In this document: piece after piece, positions 53,615-61,798 of the stretch
How the letters are laid out: each line of letters begins with the position of its first letter
How positions within the stretch are numbered: the first letter of the stretch is position 1
Assembly: GCA_022821145.1 (NCBI GenBank)
Contig: JAJEEE010000037.1
Location: 124,001 to 188,000, forward strand
Direction: 5' to 3'
DNA length: 64,000 nt
Source of the DNA: Acidobacteriota bacterium
Lineage (GTDB): Bacteria > Acidobacteriota > Terriglobia > 20CM-2-55-15
Translations under genes and position numbers: made by a program
Notes under the pieces: generated by a model
Database searches by the model: none
Told to the model about the DNA's origin: nothing
Seen by the model: the letters and a program-made list of their open reading frames with translations, nothing else

Positions 53615-54607
53615 ATGAAAGCCATTAGCGTCCGGGCGCGGGCCGGCGCCGTCATGTGCGTGCTGGTCTTCGCGCCGCGGCTCGCCGACGCGCAATTCGG
53701 CGCCGGTTTCGGTCCGCCCCTCGTCAACGCGCCGCCTCCGATGGAGTTCGAAACGTCGGCGGAACACTACGCCTACCTGCTGGAGCAGGCCGGCGGCGGG
53801 ACGACGCACACCTTCGAGACGCTCCCGCGCTGGGACGGCTTGTGGCAAACGGCCGGCAACACGGCGATGGACGCCTTCGTCGACGCGCCGCGGTTCGAGG
53901 GCCAGGTCCGCGAAGGGGTCCTGACGCCGGAATACGAGGCGGCCTACAAGGAACGCTGGCGGGAGCAGATCGAGTTGGGACAAGTGCAGTACGACCGCCT
54001 GACGCACTGCGAGCCCCCCGGCTACCCGCGCTTCCTGCTCGAACCCTACACGCACGAGTTCGTCAACCTGCCGCACATGTCGTACCAGATCAACGATTTC
54101 GACAGCTCGATCCGCCGCGTCCACATCGACCAGGAGCACCAGAACGTCACGGGCACGCATTCCTGGTACGGGGACACCATCGGGTTCTGGGACGGCGACC
54201 GGCTCGTCACGCACACCGTCGACCTTCTGCCCGTCGACTTCACGCGCTGGGCGCCGATGACGAGCAACCAGTTCGAATCGGTGGAGGTGTGGGAGCTGCA
54301 CAGCTACCCCGACGGCACGGAGCGGCTCGAGGTCCAGGTGACCTTCTACGACTCGTACGCGTTCGTGAAGCCGGTCCACGCCGTCTACGCCTACCGCAGG
54401 GCCACGGGGCTCGAGGACGCCGGCTACCGGGTCATCCACTGGGAATGCGAGCTGTCCAACAACGCGTACATGGACGCAGAAGGCGGGACCGACTACAGGC
54501 TCCCGGGCGACGAGGGATACGTCGACCCCCGCGGCTTCACGCTGTTTCCCGAGCTTCCCGGGCAGTCGCGCGACCCGATCTACAACACGACGCTCGGGGA
54601 CGATTAA
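53615..54607 (+). CDS. secreted hypothetical protein (paralog of 57111..57887)
   Basis: Signal peptide; HSWYGDTIGFWDGDRLVTHTVDLLP. RBS GGGAGAGGGAGG. Confidence 0.8.
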   Translation: MKAISVRARAGAVMCVLVFAPRLADAQFGAGFGPPLVNAPPPMEFETSAEHYAYLLEQAGGGTTHTFETLPRWDGLWQTAGNTAMDAFVDAPRFEGQVREGVLTPEYEAAYKERWREQIELGQVQYDRLTHCEPPGYPRFLLEPYTHEFVNLPHMSYQINDFDSSIRRVHIDQEHQNVTGTHSWYGDTIGFWDGDRLVTHTVDLLPVDFTRWAPMTSNQFESVEVWELHSYPDGTERLEVQVTFYDSYAFVKPVHAVYAYRRATGLEDAGYRVIHWECELSNNAYMDAEGGTDYRLPGDEGYVDPRGFTLFPELPGQSRDPIYNTTLGDD

Positions 54608-54620
54608 GAGGAGTGCATCG

Positions 54621-55097
54621 ATGAAGAGAACATTCGGCTGGACGCTGGCCGCGCTCGGGATCGGGCTCCTGGCCGGGGCCGCGGGCAACGCCCACCATTC
54701 CTTCACGCAGTTCGACCGCGACGTCGAGTTGGTCCAGACCGGCACCGTGGTGCGGTGGGCGTTCAACAACCCGCATTCGTGGCTCTACATCAACGTCGCC
54801 GACGACGCCGGCGCCGAGACGTTGTGGAGCTTCGAGGGCTCGGCGCCGGTTTCGCTCATCGGCCGCGGCATCACGGGCGCGACGTTCGAGCCCGGCGACA
54901 CGGTGACGTTCATGTACTGTCCGATGGTCGACGGACGTCCGGGCGGGCACCTGGGATGGGCCCGGCTGGGGGACGGAACGTTCGTCAACCCGAGCGACGG
55001 CGGTTGCAACGGGAACGCGGCCAACATCGAACGGTGGCAGGAATGGCTGGAAGAGGGATTCACCTCGAATACCGAGGCCGTGGCCGCCACTCGGTGA
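54621..55097 (+). CDS. DUF6152-like secreted protein
   Basis: Signal peptide; AHHSFTQFDRDVELVQTGTVVRWAFNNPHSWLYINVADDAG. Confidence 0.8.
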   Translation: MKRTFGWTLAALGIGLLAGAAGNAHHSFTQFDRDVELVQTGTVVRWAFNNPHSWLYINVADDAGAETLWSFEGSAPVSLIGRGITGATFEPGDTVTFMYCPMVDGRPGGHLGWARLGDGTFVNPSDGGCNGNAANIERWQEWLEEGFTSNTEAVAATR

Positions 55098-55160
55098 CGG
55101 ACGCATCGGAACCGGCGCATTCCGAACGTGCGCGCTGAATCGACGAACGGGAGAATAACC

Positions 55161-56693
55161 ATGAAACCAGGATCCCGCATGCCGTTCGCGGCGTTGGCGG
55201 CCGTGTCCGCGCTCGTCTGCGGACCCCAGGCGCTGGCGGCAATCGACTGTGAAGCGCTGGCGTTGCTGGCGCTGCCCGAAACCGTGATCACGGAGACCGA
55301 ACGCGTGACGTCCGGCAGCTTCGAGCAACCGAACGGCGCGGCGCTGGCCGTGCCGGCGATGTGCCGCGTGGCCGGCATCGTCAGCCCCGCGATCCGCTTC
55401 GAAGTCTGGATGCCCGAGGAATGGAACGGGCGCTTCCAGGCCGTCGGCGGCGGCGGACTGGCCGGCAACATCAGTTACGGGGCCATGGCCGGAGCCCTGG
55501 CCGACGGCTTCGCCTCGGCGTCGACCGACACGGGGCACCAGTCGTCGGACTCGAGCTGGCTCGCCGACCCCCAGCGCCTCGTCGACTACGGTTACCGGGC
55601 CATCCATGAAATGACGGTCAAGGCCAAGGCCATCATCGACGCGCATTACGGGCAGGGACCGGCGTACTCCTACTTCAACGGATGCTCCACCGGCGGCCGC
55701 CAGGGGCTGATGGAAGCCCAGCGCTATCCCGGCGACTACGACGGCATCGTCTCCGGGGCGCCGGTCAACCGCTTTACCCAGCTTCACATCGGACAGCTCT
55801 GGACGGCGCACGCGACGCTGAAGACGCCGGGAGCCGTGCTGTCGCGAGACGACTTCGCGTTGCTGATGGAGGGATCCGTCGCGCAGTGCGATCTGCTCGA
55901 CGGCGTCGAGGACGGCATCCTCCGGGACCCGCGCATGTGCACGTTCGACCCGGGAACCCTCCAATGCGGTTCGGGCGAGAGCGGATCGTGCCTGACCGCG
56001 CCGCAGGTGGACGCGGCGCGGATGATCTACCAGGGCGCTGTCAACCCGCGAACGGGCGCGCCGATCTATCCGGGCCTGGAGCCGGGCGGCGAAGGCCCGC
56101 AGCCGAACAACCCGGGCTGGTCGCTGATCATGAACGGGGAGACGCCGTTCTTCATCGACGACGCGGTGATCGGCGGCATGACCTACGAAGACCTGGAGTG
56201 GGACTGGCGCGCGTTCGACTTCGACCGGGACGTCGAGACCGTGGATGCGAAGCTCTACGGCGTCCTCAACGCCGTCGACGCGGACCTTCGCGATTTCCGG
56301 GACGCGGGCGGAAAGCTGATCATCTACCACGGCTGGAACGATCCCGGAGTCATGCCCCGCCACACGGTGGACTACTACGAGCGGATCGTCGACTTCATGG
56401 ACCGGACCGAAGGCGACGGTTACGCGAACACCGCGGAGTTCGCCCGCCTGTTCATGCAGCCCGGGGTCGGCCATTGCCGCGGCGGCGTCGGTCCGGACCG
56501 GACCGACTTCATGTCCGCGATCACGGCGTGGGTCGAAGAAGGAACCGCGCCGGACCGTCTGACGGCCAGCGCCGTGGCCGACGGCGAGGTCACGATGACG
56601 CGCCCGATCTGCCCGCACCCGTGGGTGGCGGTCTATCGGGGCGCGGGCGACACGAACCTGGCGGCCAACTTCGAATGCGCGCTTCCGGAATAG
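55161..56693 (+). CDS. tannase/feruloyl esterase family hydrolase
   Basis: YSYFNGCSTGGRQGLMEAQRYPGDYDGIVSGAPVNRFTQL (nucleophile elbow) and LIIYHGWNDPGVMP...FMQPGVGHCRGGVGPD. Confidence 0.93.
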   Translation: MKPGSRMPFAALAAVSALVCGPQALAAIDCEALALLALPETVITETERVTSGSFEQPNGAALAVPAMCRVAGIVSPAIRFEVWMPEEWNGRFQAVGGGGLAGNISYGAMAGALADGFASASTDTGHQSSDSSWLADPQRLVDYGYRAIHEMTVKAKAIIDAHYGQGPAYSYFNGCSTGGRQGLMEAQRYPGDYDGIVSGAPVNRFTQLHIGQLWTAHATLKTPGAVLSRDDFALLMEGSVAQCDLLDGVEDGILRDPRMCTFDPGTLQCGSGESGSCLTAPQVDAARMIYQGAVNPRTGAPIYPGLEPGGEGPQPNNPGWSLIMNGETPFFIDDAVIGGMTYEDLEWDWRAFDFDRDVETVDAKLYGVLNAVDADLRDFRDAGGKLIIYHGWNDPGVMPRHTVDYYERIVDFMDRTEGDGYANTAEFARLFMQPGVGHCRGGVGPDRTDFMSAITAWVEEGTAPDRLTASAVADGEVTMTRPICPHPWVAVYRGAGDTNLAANFECALPE

Positions 56694-57100
56694 GACCTCG
56701 GCGCGATGGCCGGGCGCCGTGGCTGTGGGCGCTCCTTCTCGCGGGCGCCGCGTTCGGCGCGGCGCGGCCCGCCCCCGCGCATCACGCCTGGTCCGCCGAG
56801 TACGACGGCAACGACGCCAGGGAGTTGCGCGGCGTCGTGACGCGCGTCGAATGGACGAACCCGCACGTGCGCTTCTACGTCGACGTCGAGAACCCCGACG
56901 GCGCGGTGACGAACTGGGACCTGGAACTGCAGAGCGCCAACACGCTCCGGCGCAACGGCTGGACCCGGCAGGCCCTGCGCGTGGGCGACGAAGTCGTCGT
57001 CGAAGCCTACATGGCCCGCGACGGGTCGACGCGCGGCAACGCCCGCGGCAACGTCCGGTTGGCCGACGGGCGCCGGTTGTTCGTCGGCGAGCCCGAGTAG
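56675..57100 (+). CDS. DUF6152-like secreted protein
   Basis: PAPAHHAWSAEYDGNDARELRGVVTRVEWTNPHVRFYVDVEN. Confidence 0.78.
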   Translation: MRASGIGPRRDGRAPWLWALLLAGAAFGAARPAPAHHAWSAEYDGNDARELRGVVTRVEWTNPHVRFYVDVENPDGAVTNWDLELQSANTLRRNGWTRQALRVGDEVVVEAYMARDGSTRGNARGNVRLADGRRLFVGEPE

Positions 57101-57110
57101 TTCGATCGCC

Positions 57111-57887
57111 ATGAGCACCGACTCGAAGAATCGTCGGATGTCGCGCAGCGCGGCCATCGCCGCCGCCCTCGCGATCTGCCTGCTCCCGCTCTCCGCCTCG
57201 CCGCAGGCGGTGGAGGCGGACGCGCCGCGCCTTCCCGACGGCCGGCCCGACCTTTCCGGCGTCTGGACGGGGGGCGGCGGCATCGGCCGCCTGGCCCCCG
57301 GCGAAGAGATGATCATGACGCCGTGGGCGCAGGCGATCTTCGACTACCGGCAGGACCCCGAGGGAGACGCCGCCAACGAGGACCCGAACCTGTACTGCCT
57401 GCCGTCGGGCGTGCCGCGCATGTCGCCCTACCCCTGGCGGATCGTGCAGACCCCGACGCACGGGCCCGAGACGCACGTCTTCATCCTGTTCGAAGGCAAC
57501 ATTCACAGTTATCGCCAGATCTTCATGGACGGGCGCGAGCATCCCGAGGATCCCGACCCCACCTGGTACGGCCATTCCATCGGTCGTTGGGAAGGAGACA
57601 CGCTCGTGGTCGACACCATCGGCTACAACGACCTGTTCTGGTTCTCCTTCCAGGGCCACCCGCATTCGGTCGAGCTCCACACCGTCGAACGCTTCACGAG
57701 AACCGGCCTCGACACGCTCCAGTGGGACATCACGATCGACGATCCCGTCGCATACGAGAAGCCCTTCACGGTTACCAGCCAGGCCCGCCTCATGCCCGGC
57801 GAGGAACTGATGGAGTACATCTGCCAGGAGAACAACACCAGCGGCGGCCGCCTGCGGGGGCCGGCCATCGGCCCGGGCGGGCCGTGA
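57111..57887 (+). CDS. secreted hypothetical protein (paralog of 53615..54607)
   Basis: Signal peptide; RLPDGRPDLSGVWTGGG...PTWYGHSIGRWEGDTLVVDTIGYNDLFWF. Confidence 0.8.
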   Translation: MSTDSKNRRMSRSAAIAAALAICLLPLSASPQAVEADAPRLPDGRPDLSGVWTGGGGIGRLAPGEEMIMTPWAQAIFDYRQDPEGDAANEDPNLYCLPSGVPRMSPYPWRIVQTPTHGPETHVFILFEGNIHSYRQIFMDGREHPEDPDPTWYGHSIGRWEGDTLVVDTIGYNDLFWFSFQGHPHSVELHTVERFTRTGLDTLQWDITIDDPVAYEKPFTVTSQARLMPGEELMEYICQENNTSGGRLRGPAIGPGGP

Positions 57888-58170: not shown

Positions 58171-58318
58171 GTGGGCGGCGGCGCACCGCGGCGCCCCGTT
58201 CCCATTGCGACTTCGAACGACCTTGCCATGACGCATGCCTCGGGCAGCCCTCGCCCCCGCCGACAATTTCCGTTTCCGGCTTGACCCGTGGGGAGACAGC
58301 GCCCTATAGTTCCTATTT

Positions 58319-58345
58319 CGAAATTGACAATGATTTTCAATTTCG
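58319..58345. promoter_or_regulatory. 27-bp palindrome containing Fur-box-like sequence GACAATGATTTTCAATTTC
   Basis: CGAAATTGA-caatgattt-TCAATTTCG, perfect 9-bp arms; 14/19 match to GATAATGATAATCATTATC at 58326..58344. Confidence 0.65.
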
Positions 58346-58374
58346 ACTAGAGTGAGACTGCCGTGGAGGAATCG

Positions 58375-59733
58375 GTGTTGCGTTTGTTCACCAGTTACTG
58401 CGCCGTCGCGATCGTCATGTTGACGGGCGCCGCCCGTCCGGCGACGGCGTCGCAAGATCCGAGCCCCCCCACCGTGGCCACGCTGGGTGACAACCCGTCG
58501 AATCCGGCCGAACCGAACGAGGAATCGGAGACCGTGGCTGGAACGACGACGCAGGTGGACATCGAGGAACTGGAACGCCGGATCGAAGTGCTCGCGGACG
58601 AAGTCGAACGTCTGCGGAGCGGCGAAACCCCTGTCGACGCGTTGGACGCCGCTGAAGCACGGGCGCTCGGACTGTCGCCGTCGGCCGCGTCCGCCTACGG
58701 CGTCGAACGGGGCGTGTCGATCGCCGGATACGGCGAAATGCTCTATGAGAACTTCGCGTCCGACGCAACGTCGCGGCTCGACTACCTGCGCGCCATCGTG
58801 TACGCCGGTTACCGGTTCAACGACCGGTTCATCTTCAATTCCGAAATCGAAATCGAGCACGGAAAAGAAATCTTCGTCGAGTTCGCCTACGTCGACTGGC
58901 TTGCGCGCGACAACTTCGGCGTCCGCGCCGGCATGCTGTTGATTCCCATGGGACTGATCAACGAGTTCCACGAACCGACCGTGTTCCTCGGCGCCGAGCG
59001 TCCGGTCACCGAGCGGAGCATCATTCCGGCCACGTGGCGCGAAAACGGCGCCGGCGTCTACGGAACGGCCGGCGACATCCTGACGTACCGCGCCTATGTC
59101 GTCAACGGCTTCGACGGCTCGGCCTTCTCGGCCACCGGTCTCCGGGGAGGGCGCCAGAAGGGCGTCCGCGCCAAGGCCGACGACATGGCGTTCACCGGAC
59201 GCGTCGACATCACGCCCACGCCCGGCGTTTTCTTCGGCGGCGGCGTCTACATCGGGAACTCGGGACAGGGCGACATCGAGGTCGACGGCGTCGACCACGG
59301 CGTTCGCACCCGCGTCTTCGACCTCCACGGCCAGGCGCAGTTGCGAGGCTTCGACGTAAGGGCGCTCTATGCTCAGGCCGACCTCGACGACACCGCAGCG
59401 CTGAACCGCGCGCTCGGACTGACCGGTTCGAAGGGCATCGCCAAGACGATGCGCGGCGGCTACATCCAACTCGGATACGACGTTCTGTCGCAGGTGCCGG
59501 CGGCCGCCGGCGTCGGGCTGACGCCCTACCTCCGATACGAAAAGGTCGACACGCAAGCGGCTCTCGCAGCCGGGTTCACGCGCGACCCGTCGACCAACAA
59601 TACCTTCACGACGTTCGGCGTCGAGCTGAAACCGATCCCGAACATCGTGGTCAAGTTCGACCACATGTGGGTCGACAACAGCGCCGACAGCGGCGTCAAC
59701 CAGTTCAACGTCAACGTGGGGTACACGTTCTAG
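58375..59733 (+). CDS. outer-membrane porin-like beta-barrel protein
   Basis: RBS GGAGGA then GTG 58375; signal peptide; coiled-coil (IEELERRIEVLADEVERLRSG); alternating beta-strands ending FNVNVGYTF. Confidence 0.82.
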   Translation: MLRLFTSYCAVAIVMLTGAARPATASQDPSPPTVATLGDNPSNPAEPNEESETVAGTTTQVDIEELERRIEVLADEVERLRSGETPVDALDAAEARALGLSPSAASAYGVERGVSIAGYGEMLYENFASDATSRLDYLRAIVYAGYRFNDRFIFNSEIEIEHGKEIFVEFAYVDWLARDNFGVRAGMLLIPMGLINEFHEPTVFLGAERPVTERSIIPATWRENGAGVYGTAGDILTYRAYVVNGFDGSAFSATGLRGGRQKGVRAKADDMAFTGRVDITPTPGVFFGGGVYIGNSGQGDIEVDGVDHGVRTRVFDLHGQAQLRGFDVRALYAQADLDDTAALNRALGLTGSKGIAKTMRGGYIQLGYDVLSQVPAAAGVGLTPYLRYEKVDTQAALAAGFTRDPSTNNTFTTFGVELKPIPNIVVKFDHMWVDNSADSGVNQFNVNVGYTF

Positions 59734-59739
59734 TTCGTC

Positions 59740-60330
59740 ATGCGGCGCCGACCGAACATGCAACGATCAGCGAGATGGGGCACGCTCCTCGCCTGCGCGC
59801 TGTGGCTGGCCTGGGCCCCGGGCGCGGCAACGGCCCAGTCGGGGCTGGTGTCACGTGAGGAAGCGTTGGCGGCCGTGTACCCCGGCGCGACAACCGCTTC
59901 GGAACGGGTCTTCCTGACAGACGGGCAGGTCGAACGGATCGAGGCCCTTTCACGCACCGACGGGGTCTCGAGAATCTACGCCCGCTACGTCGCCCGCCGG
60001 AACGGGACGGTGGTCGGCCGGGCGTACGTGGACACGCACGTCGTGCGGACCAAGCGCGAGAGTCTGCTCGTGTCTCTCGAGGCCGACGGCCGGGTGCGCC
60101 GGATCGACGTCACCGCTTTCCTGGAGCCGCCGGACTATCTGCCGTCCGAGACATGGCGTCGCCAGTACTACGAACAATCCCTCGGCGACGATCTCGAGGT
60201 GCGGCGGCTGATCCGCCCGATCGCCGGCGCGACGCTGACCACGTTGGCCGTGAATGCCGCCGTGCGCCGGGTCCTGGCCATGGATCGGGTGTTGCAGGAG
60301 GACGCATCCGGACAGGGGGCGCTCCCATGA
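59740..60330 (+). CDS. FMN-binding domain protein (flavinylated, RnfG/NosR-like)
   Basis: Signal peptide; VGRAYVDTHVVRTKRESLLVSLEADGRVRRIDVTAFLEPPDYLPSETW...RPIAGATLTTLAVNAAVRRVL, with a GAT-x-T flavinylation-like motif. Confidence 0.82.
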   Translation: MRRRPNMQRSARWGTLLACALWLAWAPGAATAQSGLVSREEALAAVYPGATTASERVFLTDGQVERIEALSRTDGVSRIYARYVARRNGTVVGRAYVDTHVVRTKRESLLVSLEADGRVRRIDVTAFLEPPDYLPSETWRRQYYEQSLGDDLEVRRLIRPIAGATLTTLAVNAAVRRVLAMDRVLQEDASGQGALP

Positions 60331-60803
60331 TGTGGTGGGAGCGATGGGCGTTCAACGCGCTCCACGCGGTCGTCAGCATCACCGGCTTCGTGTACCTGTA
60401 CATGGAATACGTCCTCGCCACCGACGACCCCTTCGCGATCATCAACCATCCGTGGCAACCCGCCATGCTTTCCATCCACATCGTGGCGGCGCCGGCGTTC
60501 ATCGCCGTTTTCGGAATCCTGTTCCGTGCACACTCGCTTCGGAAGCTGCGTTCGGACAATCCCGTCAACCGCCGCAGCGGATGGACATCGATCATCGGTT
60601 TCTCGGTAATGGCCATGTCCGGCTATTGCATCCAGGTCGCCACGACTCCCACGCTCATCGCCTTCTTTACTTGGTTGCACATCGCCGCCGGCACGCTGTT
60701 CGCCCTGAGTTACGGCGTTCATCTCCTGATCGGCTGGCGATTCAAGGGCCGCACGGCCCGCGGGCGCCCCGCCCTCCCGGACACTGCTCGGCTGACGCCA
60801 TGA
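60327..60803 (+). CDS. cytochrome b-like four-TM membrane protein
   Basis: Histidines in TM context: NALHAVVSITGF, MLSIHIVAAP, FTWLHIAAGTLF, SYGVHLLIGW; ATGA overlap with upstream ORF. Confidence 0.75.
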   Translation: MMWWERWAFNALHAVVSITGFVYLYMEYVLATDDPFAIINHPWQPAMLSIHIVAAPAFIAVFGILFRAHSLRKLRSDNPVNRRSGWTSIIGFSVMAMSGYCIQVATTPTLIAFFTWLHIAAGTLFALSYGVHLLIGWRFKGRTARGRPALPDTARLTP

Positions 60804-61798
60804 AGTCGGCGCTGGCCGCCGTGCTGCTCTGCGTCGGGACGGGCGCGTGCCAACATTCCGCGCCGACGGTCCGTCTTCAGCGCACGGTGATCCTGATGGG
60901 CACAACGGCGACGTTCGTGGCCGAGGCGCCGAACCGGGAAACCGCGCTGGCGCGCCTCGAACGGATGGTTCGCACCATCGAGGCCGGGGAGGCAGAACTC
61001 AGCACCTGGCGCGGCGAGAGTGCACTGAGCGCCATAAACCGCCAGGCGCCCGGTCAGCCGCTGCAGTTGACACCGGCGATATGCGAAATGCTCGGCCGGC
61101 TCGAGAGTTGGCGCCGTGACACATCCGGCGCGTTCGATCCGGCCATCGGCAGCCTGATCGAGGCCTGGGACCTGCGCGGCCGGGGACGACAACCGGACGC
61201 GGACGCCATGACCGCAGCGCGCGCGCTCGCGGGATGGCCCCTCGTGGGATTCCACCGCGACAGTTGCACGCTCACACGACGCGCCCACGTCACGCTCGAC
61301 GCCGGGGCCTTCGGCAAGGGCGAAGCCCTCGATCGCGTCCGCGCCGTGGAGGAAGACGTCGGCGGCGCTTGGTTCATCGACTTCGGCGGGCAGATGGCGG
61401 TCTCGGACGCGCCCTCGACGGTCGGCTGGCCCGTTGCGTTGGCCCATCCGGTGGACCGCGACAAGCCGGTCATGGAACTGCAACTGAACGAGGGATCGTT
61501 GGCCACCAGCGGCGCATACGGCCGTACGCTGCAGTTGGACGGCGGCGAACGGGTCGGCCATATCCTGGACCCGCGCACCGGCGCTCCAGTCGTCGGCGAC
61601 GCCTCGGTGACGGTCTGGCATCCGAACGCGTTCACGGCCGATGTGCTCTCCACGGCTCTTTACGTGATGGGACCCGAAACCGGGCTCGACTGGGCCGCGG
61701 CCCGCGGATTCGCCGTTTGCTACATCATCCCGGTCGACGGATCGGACGACGTCGCGTTTCTCGCGACGCCGGCGTTCGAGCAACGGTTTCCCCTGTAG
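60800..61798 (+). CDS. apbE: FAD:protein FMN transferase
   Basis: LMGTTATFVAEA, LSTWRGESALSAINR, GAFDPAIGSLIEAW, LDAGAFGKGEALDRV, LATSGAYGRTLQLDGGERVGHILDPRTGAPV; ATGA-type overlap. Confidence 0.92.
   Translation: MKSALAAVLLCVGTGACQHSAPTVRLQRTVILMGTTATFVAEAPNRETALARLERMVRTIEAGEAELSTWRGESALSAINRQAPGQPLQLTPAICEMLGRLESWRRDTSGAFDPAIGSLIEAWDLRGRGRQPDADAMTAARALAGWPLVGFHRDSCTLTRRAHVTLDAGAFGKGEALDRVRAVEEDVGGAWFIDFGGQMAVSDAPSTVGWPVALAHPVDRDKPVMELQLNEGSLATSGAYGRTLQLDGGERVGHILDPRTGAPVVGDASVTVWHPNAFTADVLSTALYVMGPETGLDWAAARGFAVCYIIPVDGSDDVAFLATPAFEQRFPL

Follow-up and report, generated by a model that had tools for sequence, protein, structure and literature searches.

The PepSY-like flavinylated iron-assimilation clusters, for which Fur repression is known from Shewanella and Caulobacter, combine a PepSY_TM protein with a DUF2271 protein and ApbE, and flavinylated gene sets linked to MsrQ and P19 are also known for iron assimilation (PMC8238504). 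DUF4405 and FezC are cytochromes linked to flavinylation or to ferrosomes (PMC10979944). FoxB is a di-heme iron reductase (PMC8891985), and FrcB is a diheme ferric reductase according to the title of a cited work. Here we analyzed a window of 64,000 nucleotides from an Acidobacteriota bacterium (assembly GCA_022821145.1, contig JAJEEE010000037.1, positions 124,001 to 188,000; the genome comprises 4.18 Mb in 89 contigs), which harbors a four-gene operon for a porin-like protein, an exported protein resembling the flavin mononucleotide (FMN)-binding family FMN_bind, a four-transmembrane (4-TM) protein resembling b-type cytochromes, and ApbE. We consider it likely that the operon encodes a Fur-repressed, flavinylated, b-type-cytochrome periplasmic ferric reductase that supplies Fe2+ to Feo and possesses its own porin. 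The sequence supports the operon, an iron-type operator, linkage to Feo and Fur, a flavinylation site and the histidines; we infer the heme and FMN occupancy, the electron donor, ferric iron as the acceptor and the cargo of the porin. The features of the locus are as follows.

58281-58310, + strand: sigma-70-like promoter, read directly from the sequence (TTGACC at 58281-58286, 18-bp spacer, TATAGT at 58305-58310)
58319-58345, no strand: 27-bp palindrome with perfect arms, CGAAATTGA-N9-TCAATTTCG; its core at 58325-58339, TGACAATGATTTTCA, is the putative Fur box
58363-59733, + strand: outer-membrane porin-like gene (456 residues; GTG start at 58363; signal peptide, short coiled coil and C-terminal F)
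59740-60330, + strand: FMN_bind-like exported flavoprotein gene (196 residues; predicted ApbE target in IAGATLTT)
60327-60803, + strand: 4-TM b-type-cytochrome-like gene (158 residues; H51, H69, H118 and H132 invariant, H41 nearly invariant)
60800-61798, + strand: gene for ApbE, the flavin adenine dinucleotide (FAD):protein FMN transferase (332 residues; PF02424, E-value 1.4e-56)

A first-pass annotation of the same DNA had described four same-strand genes in the order porin, FMN_bind-like, 4-TM and apbE, with overlaps at the last two junctions, and the coordinates agree on both counts (58363-61798 for the run; 60327 against 60330 and 60800 against 60803 at the junctions). The annotation had also placed a 27-bp palindrome with perfect arms about 30 bp upstream. 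Its length and arms were as described, and the distance was shorter, the palindrome ending 17 bp before the GTG start.

The operon shares with the PepSY-like clusters ApbE, an exported protein predicted to be flavinylated, a putative membrane b-type cytochrome and probable Fur control. In contrast to those clusters, its TM protein has no PepSY_TM match, the ApbE substrate would be FMN_bind instead of DUF2271, a dedicated porin gene forms part of the operon, and the linkage is to FeoB rather than to VIT1 or TonB receptors. The putative cytochrome resembles DUF4405 and FezC in its four TM histidines, its linkage to apbE and an H-x13-H alignment in TM3-TM4. Unlike these proteins, which have six TM helices and a flavodoxin partner, it has four TM helices, a score below the Pfam cut-off, a DPF..NHPWQP loop, an FMN_bind partner and a porin. 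The ferric reductases FoxB and FrcB (PMC8891985) contain an inner-membrane 4-TM bundle, to which the operon cytochrome is likened by description and not by sequence; neither of them relies on a porin or on a flavinylated partner in the periplasm, whereas the operon encodes a porin and a predicted flavoprotein. Further, the putative FMN_bind domain with its predicted GAT flavinylation site recalls RnfG and NqrC, but it is stand-alone, exported and outside an RNF or NQR operon. As PMC8238504, PMC10979944 and PMC8891985 describe them, none of these systems unites such a cytochrome with FeoB and a dedicated porin in a single operon. Neither FeoB nor Acidobacteria is mentioned in the main text of PMC8238504, and we found nothing relevant on this gene combination in the open-access literature, a prior description elsewhere being possible.

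The palindrome core fits the 7-1-7 Fur-box pattern TGANAATNATTNTCA at 12 of 12 fixed positions. It lies over the expected transcription start, downstream of TTGACC-18-TATAGT, and a repressor bound at 58319-58345 would block transcription initiation. In the window, the core was the only TGATAATNATTATCA site with three or fewer mismatches (0.11 expected). Genome-wide, three sites matched TGANAATNATTNTCA with at most one mismatch, compared with none for the reversed control. No other Fur-box sites occur in the genome, and the three lie ahead of the four-gene operon, a gene for a PepSY_TM protein (PF03929, E-value 1.4e-50; 95 bp ahead) and feoA-feoB (PF04023 and PF02421; 46 bp ahead), so that the genes behind all three sites are of predicted iron-acquisition type. 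In the sister species L003, the porin and FMN proteins of which are 97-99% identical to those of the window, the promoter was retained and the core was identical, while the left outer arm had drifted. The core therefore appears to be the functional part of the palindrome. We also considered that the palindrome had arisen by chance, as an AT-rich patch against a GC-rich background, and rejected this because of the Fur-box counts in the window, in the genome and among relatives. Two FUR-family proteins are encoded in the genome. With a box at the promoter, the same box at other iron genes and a Fur protein at hand, the operon is a candidate member of the Fur regulon, and its regulation by iron is strongly supported in silico.

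The PepSY_TM gene lies at L021:4002-5144 (minus strand) and its Fur box, a perfect match to the degenerate pattern, at L021:5239-5253. The organism may thus have two iron-regulated ferric reductases, the PepSY_TM protein and the operon.

A single-protein scan revealed nine loci, including those of Vicinamibacterales, Bryobacteraceae and Schekmanbacteria metagenome-assembled genomes. All four genes were present in the eight loci long enough to judge (the contig of the ninth, L009, ends inside the 4-TM gene), with ApbE placed first in the Schekmanbacteria locus. When a profile search was used, the 4-TM protein was found in 100 of 396 sampled Acidobacteriota genomes, and most of the corresponding loci were retrieved. 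Among 86 loci examined, the FMN gene was found near the 4-TM gene in 84, the porin in 76 and ApbE in 72, some of the gaps being contig ends. Further, a single open reading frame encodes a fusion of the 4-TM protein with ApbE in two genomes of the family to which the window belongs (L025:3469-4938 and L026:2495-3946, minus strand), which is a strong sign of joint function. The second ApbE of the window's genome ends an apparent NQR-like operon (L027:321-5763); therefore, the ApbE at 60800-61798 is probably dedicated to the four-gene operon. At three loci (L063:6427-7306, L077:4391-5167 and L105:9612-10664), the ApbE match was split into two pieces or frames, possibly by frameshifts or assembly errors. 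L066 and L067 have SBP_bac_3-like genes upstream, which we evaluated as possible replacements of the porin and set aside. In L067, a Fur box sits between the SBP_bac_3-like gene and the FMN gene, and the former is therefore probably outside the operon.

To survey operators in these relatives, 400 bp upstream of the 73 loci with upstream sequence was scored on the 12 fixed positions. At least 10 of 12 positions matched in 35 of the 73 loci, compared with 1.3% of random 420-bp pieces. Sites matching at 11 or more positions numbered 18 in 30 kb upstream of the operons and 0 in 877 kb elsewhere. Permuted palindromes used as controls reached a mean of 1.3 loci, with one permutation, probably a near-copy of the true box, reaching 33; the operator claim rests on the density upstream versus elsewhere rather than on these controls. 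A variant palindrome, TGAGAYTCAGTCTCA, which scores lower on the classic Fur box, was common among relatives. In genome G191, its form TGAGATNNNNTCTCA occurred only at the operon, where two copies flank the promoter region, and 59 bp ahead of a fused feoA-feoB gene. The variant is thus linked to iron genes independently of the Fur consensus. At L008:3800-3930, upstream of the porin, a promoter-like TTGACG/TATATA stretch has a copy of the TGAGATYCAGTCTCA palindrome on either side.

The genes beside the operon in relatives point in the same direction. A FUR-family gene was located at 19 of the 86 loci, whereas about 0.5 was expected from roughly two FUR genes per genome, a rough guide that disregards shared ancestry. 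These 19 loci cover 13 family labels, with FUR on the opposite strand in three labels, and for G221, G229 and G369 no FUR gene other than the one at the locus was found in the genome. A full FeoB gene was present at five loci, in the order Fur-FeoB-ApbE-porin-FMN-4-TM cytochrome. The two of these that were checked in detail, L107 and L126, contained DtxR-type domains and, on the same protein, a FeoA domain within the run. At L126:645-4077 and L107:10810-14275, Fur, FeoB and DtxR-type genes lie directly ahead of the cassette, so that two kinds of iron regulator occur at one locus.

The first-pass annotation had read the locus as a Fur-controlled iron module. The comparisons support this reading, as the other two Fur boxes of the genome belong to iron genes and related operons carry Fur and FeoB. 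Both checks that it proposed across genomes gave positive results: the gene order porin/FMN_bind/cytochrome b/ApbE recurs, and Fur-type palindromes, the loss of which from homologous loci it had named as evidence to the contrary, are enriched just ahead of the operon.

We then compared the proteins with known families. The ApbE domain scored 192.5 bits against PF02424 (curated cut-off, 25.6). The FMN_bind protein of the window alone scored 19.3 bits against PF04205, below the gathering cut-off of 22, and PF04205 was matched by 10 of 10 members of an alignment of its close relatives (best E-value, 4e-7). In a profile search of the PDB, RnfG (9eri) was the best match to this protein (E-value 4e-7). 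The known flavinylation motif is [S/T]GA[S/T] (PMC8238504). In 85 aligned relatives, the G of the GA[T/S] motif was conserved in 85, the A in 83, and T or S at the acceptor position in 85 (77 T and 8 S). The window motif, AGATLT, has A at the first position instead of the canonical S or T, as do about one-third of the aligned homologues. The IAGATLTT motif and four TM histidines, both proposed at first pass, are thus present and conserved; H51, H69, H118 and H132 were invariant in the 84-86 aligned 4-TM proteins. H41, in a conserved DPF..NHPWQP loop, was 98% conserved, and H13 showed no conservation.

The model of the 4-TM protein contains helices at 43-74 and 108-146, with four TM segments predicted, and the two pairs of conserved TM histidines are those expected of a putative di-heme b-type membrane cytochrome. 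The NHPWQP loop is probably periplasmic, because positive charges are located in the TM2-TM3 loop and the C-terminus (positive-inside rule). TM2 and TM4 would run the same way and could therefore provide the histidine pairs H51/H118 and H69/H132, an arrangement known from b cytochromes with two hemes. Among relatives of this protein, DUF4405 and cytochrome b561 were recurrent weak matches. The window protein itself scored 13.1 bits against PF14358 (DUF4405; cut-off, 26.7) and has four instead of six TM helices, and a genome search for PF14358 did not recover it. When aligned using hhalign, TM3-TM4 including H118 and H132 (H-x13-H) matched DUF4405 with 84% probability (E-value 7.8e-6 in a single comparison). 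Given this alignment and the score below the cut-off, the protein is best called a distant DUF4405/b561-like cytochrome and not a member of the family. PepSY_TM (PF03929) was absent from the families listed for 9 and 55 members of the 4-TM family, which places the protein outside the PepSY-like group, and a sequence search of the PDB with the 4-TM cytochrome gave no match.

The AlphaFold model of the porin-like protein showed 16 strands at modest confidence (mean predicted local distance difference test score, 66), which corresponds to the predicted 16-stranded outer-membrane barrel of a general porin. OmpM1, OmpC and OprO were retrieved with this model using Foldseek (best E-value, 2e-9), and a Pfam search of the protein found no family.

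From these results, we propose the following mechanism. When iron is low, release of Fur from the operator (58319-58345) would allow expression of the four genes. The exported FMN_bind protein would receive FMN, linked covalently to its GAT threonine by ApbE. The 4-TM protein would bind two b hemes, through H51/H118 on the periplasmic side and H69/H132 on the cytoplasmic side. It would draw electrons from the quinone pool, or from a donor in the cytoplasm, and pass them through the inner membrane to the flavoprotein. In the periplasm, the flavoprotein would reduce free or chelated Fe(III), and the resulting Fe(II) would enter via FeoAB, the genes of which have the same operator. For iron or small iron chelates, the porin would be the way through the outer membrane. 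We regard as doubtful the further idea that the FMN_bind protein docks on the periplasmic mouth of the porin, so that Fe(III) is reduced on entry or at the cell surface. If true, the porin and the flavoprotein would form a single device that corresponds to the porin-cytochrome conduits, with a flavin and no heme c, and that serves assimilation instead of respiration. The iron nutrition of Acidobacteriota, many of which are uncultured, is little known, and the locus would provide a concrete reductive route consisting of a porin, a flavinylated carrier, a small cytochrome and Feo. Such a route would exist in about one-quarter of the Acidobacteriota genomes sampled, would involve a family of cytochromes that has no name as yet, and would address an open question about Feo, namely the source of ferrous iron when ferric iron prevails.

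Several results weigh against the proposal of a ferric reductase. No cytochrome family was matched above its curated cut-off by the window 4-TM protein, and its model retrieved no significant match from the PDB using Foldseek; cytochromes b6f and bc1 and hydrogenase cytochrome b, at a TM-score of about 0.5, were among the noise and were not used as proof. The porin was missing near about 10 of the 86 loci and ApbE near 14 (some at contig ends), and thus neither is strictly required in cis. The FeoB linkage was limited to three family labels, and feoAB is unlinked to the operon in the window's genome. Finally, about 30 of the 73 loci had no recognizable Fur-type palindrome. We rejected the view that the relatives lack an operator, as many carry TGAGAYTCAGTCTCA, which also marks feoAB in G191.

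The module may be iron-regulated without reducing iron. Its flavoprotein would then donate electrons to a different acceptor in the periplasm, for instance to spare iron by standing in for a c-type cytochrome, or for defence against peroxide or thiol stress. Many acceptors are served by flavinylated carriers (PMC8238504), and no catalytic ferric-binding domain is recognizable in the operon proteins. However, the 4-TM cytochrome itself needs heme iron, so that little would be spared, and the genes seen to recur beside the operon were those for Fur, FeoB, FeoA and DtxR-type proteins, with no oxidoreductase partner among them. Both remaining Fur-box sites of the genome also precede genes of the iron-uptake type. 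We consider this explanation unlikely. The presence of the porin in 76 of 86 loci, together with Fe(III) as a plausible acceptor, would also suit a porin-flavoprotein conduit that respires external Fe(III) or minerals. A Fur-type operator implies induction at low iron, the opposite of what iron respiration needs; the FeoB linkage points to assimilation, and none of the four operon proteins contains a CxxCH heme motif. Such dissimilatory or extracellular electron transfer is thus highly improbable.

A reductase for xenosiderophores or other chelates departs from the proposed model in its substrate only: the porin would admit specific ferric chelates, and the cytochrome-flavoprotein pair would free the iron in the manner of FoxB and PutB. 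A 4-TM bundle is found in FrcB and also in FoxB, which is a di-heme reductase, but porins are too narrow for most ferrisiderophores (PMC8891985). We noticed no gene for a TonB-dependent receptor in the loci, though none was searched for, and we regard this version as very unlikely. The periplasmic ferric reductase supplying Feo is the explanation that we favor.

Upstream of the operon, at 53615-57887 of the window, are genes for exported proteins, including a member of the tannase/feruloyl-esterase family (55128-56693), a DUF6152 protein (54621-55097) and two unassigned proteins. These genes possibly form a catabolic cluster unrelated to the operon.

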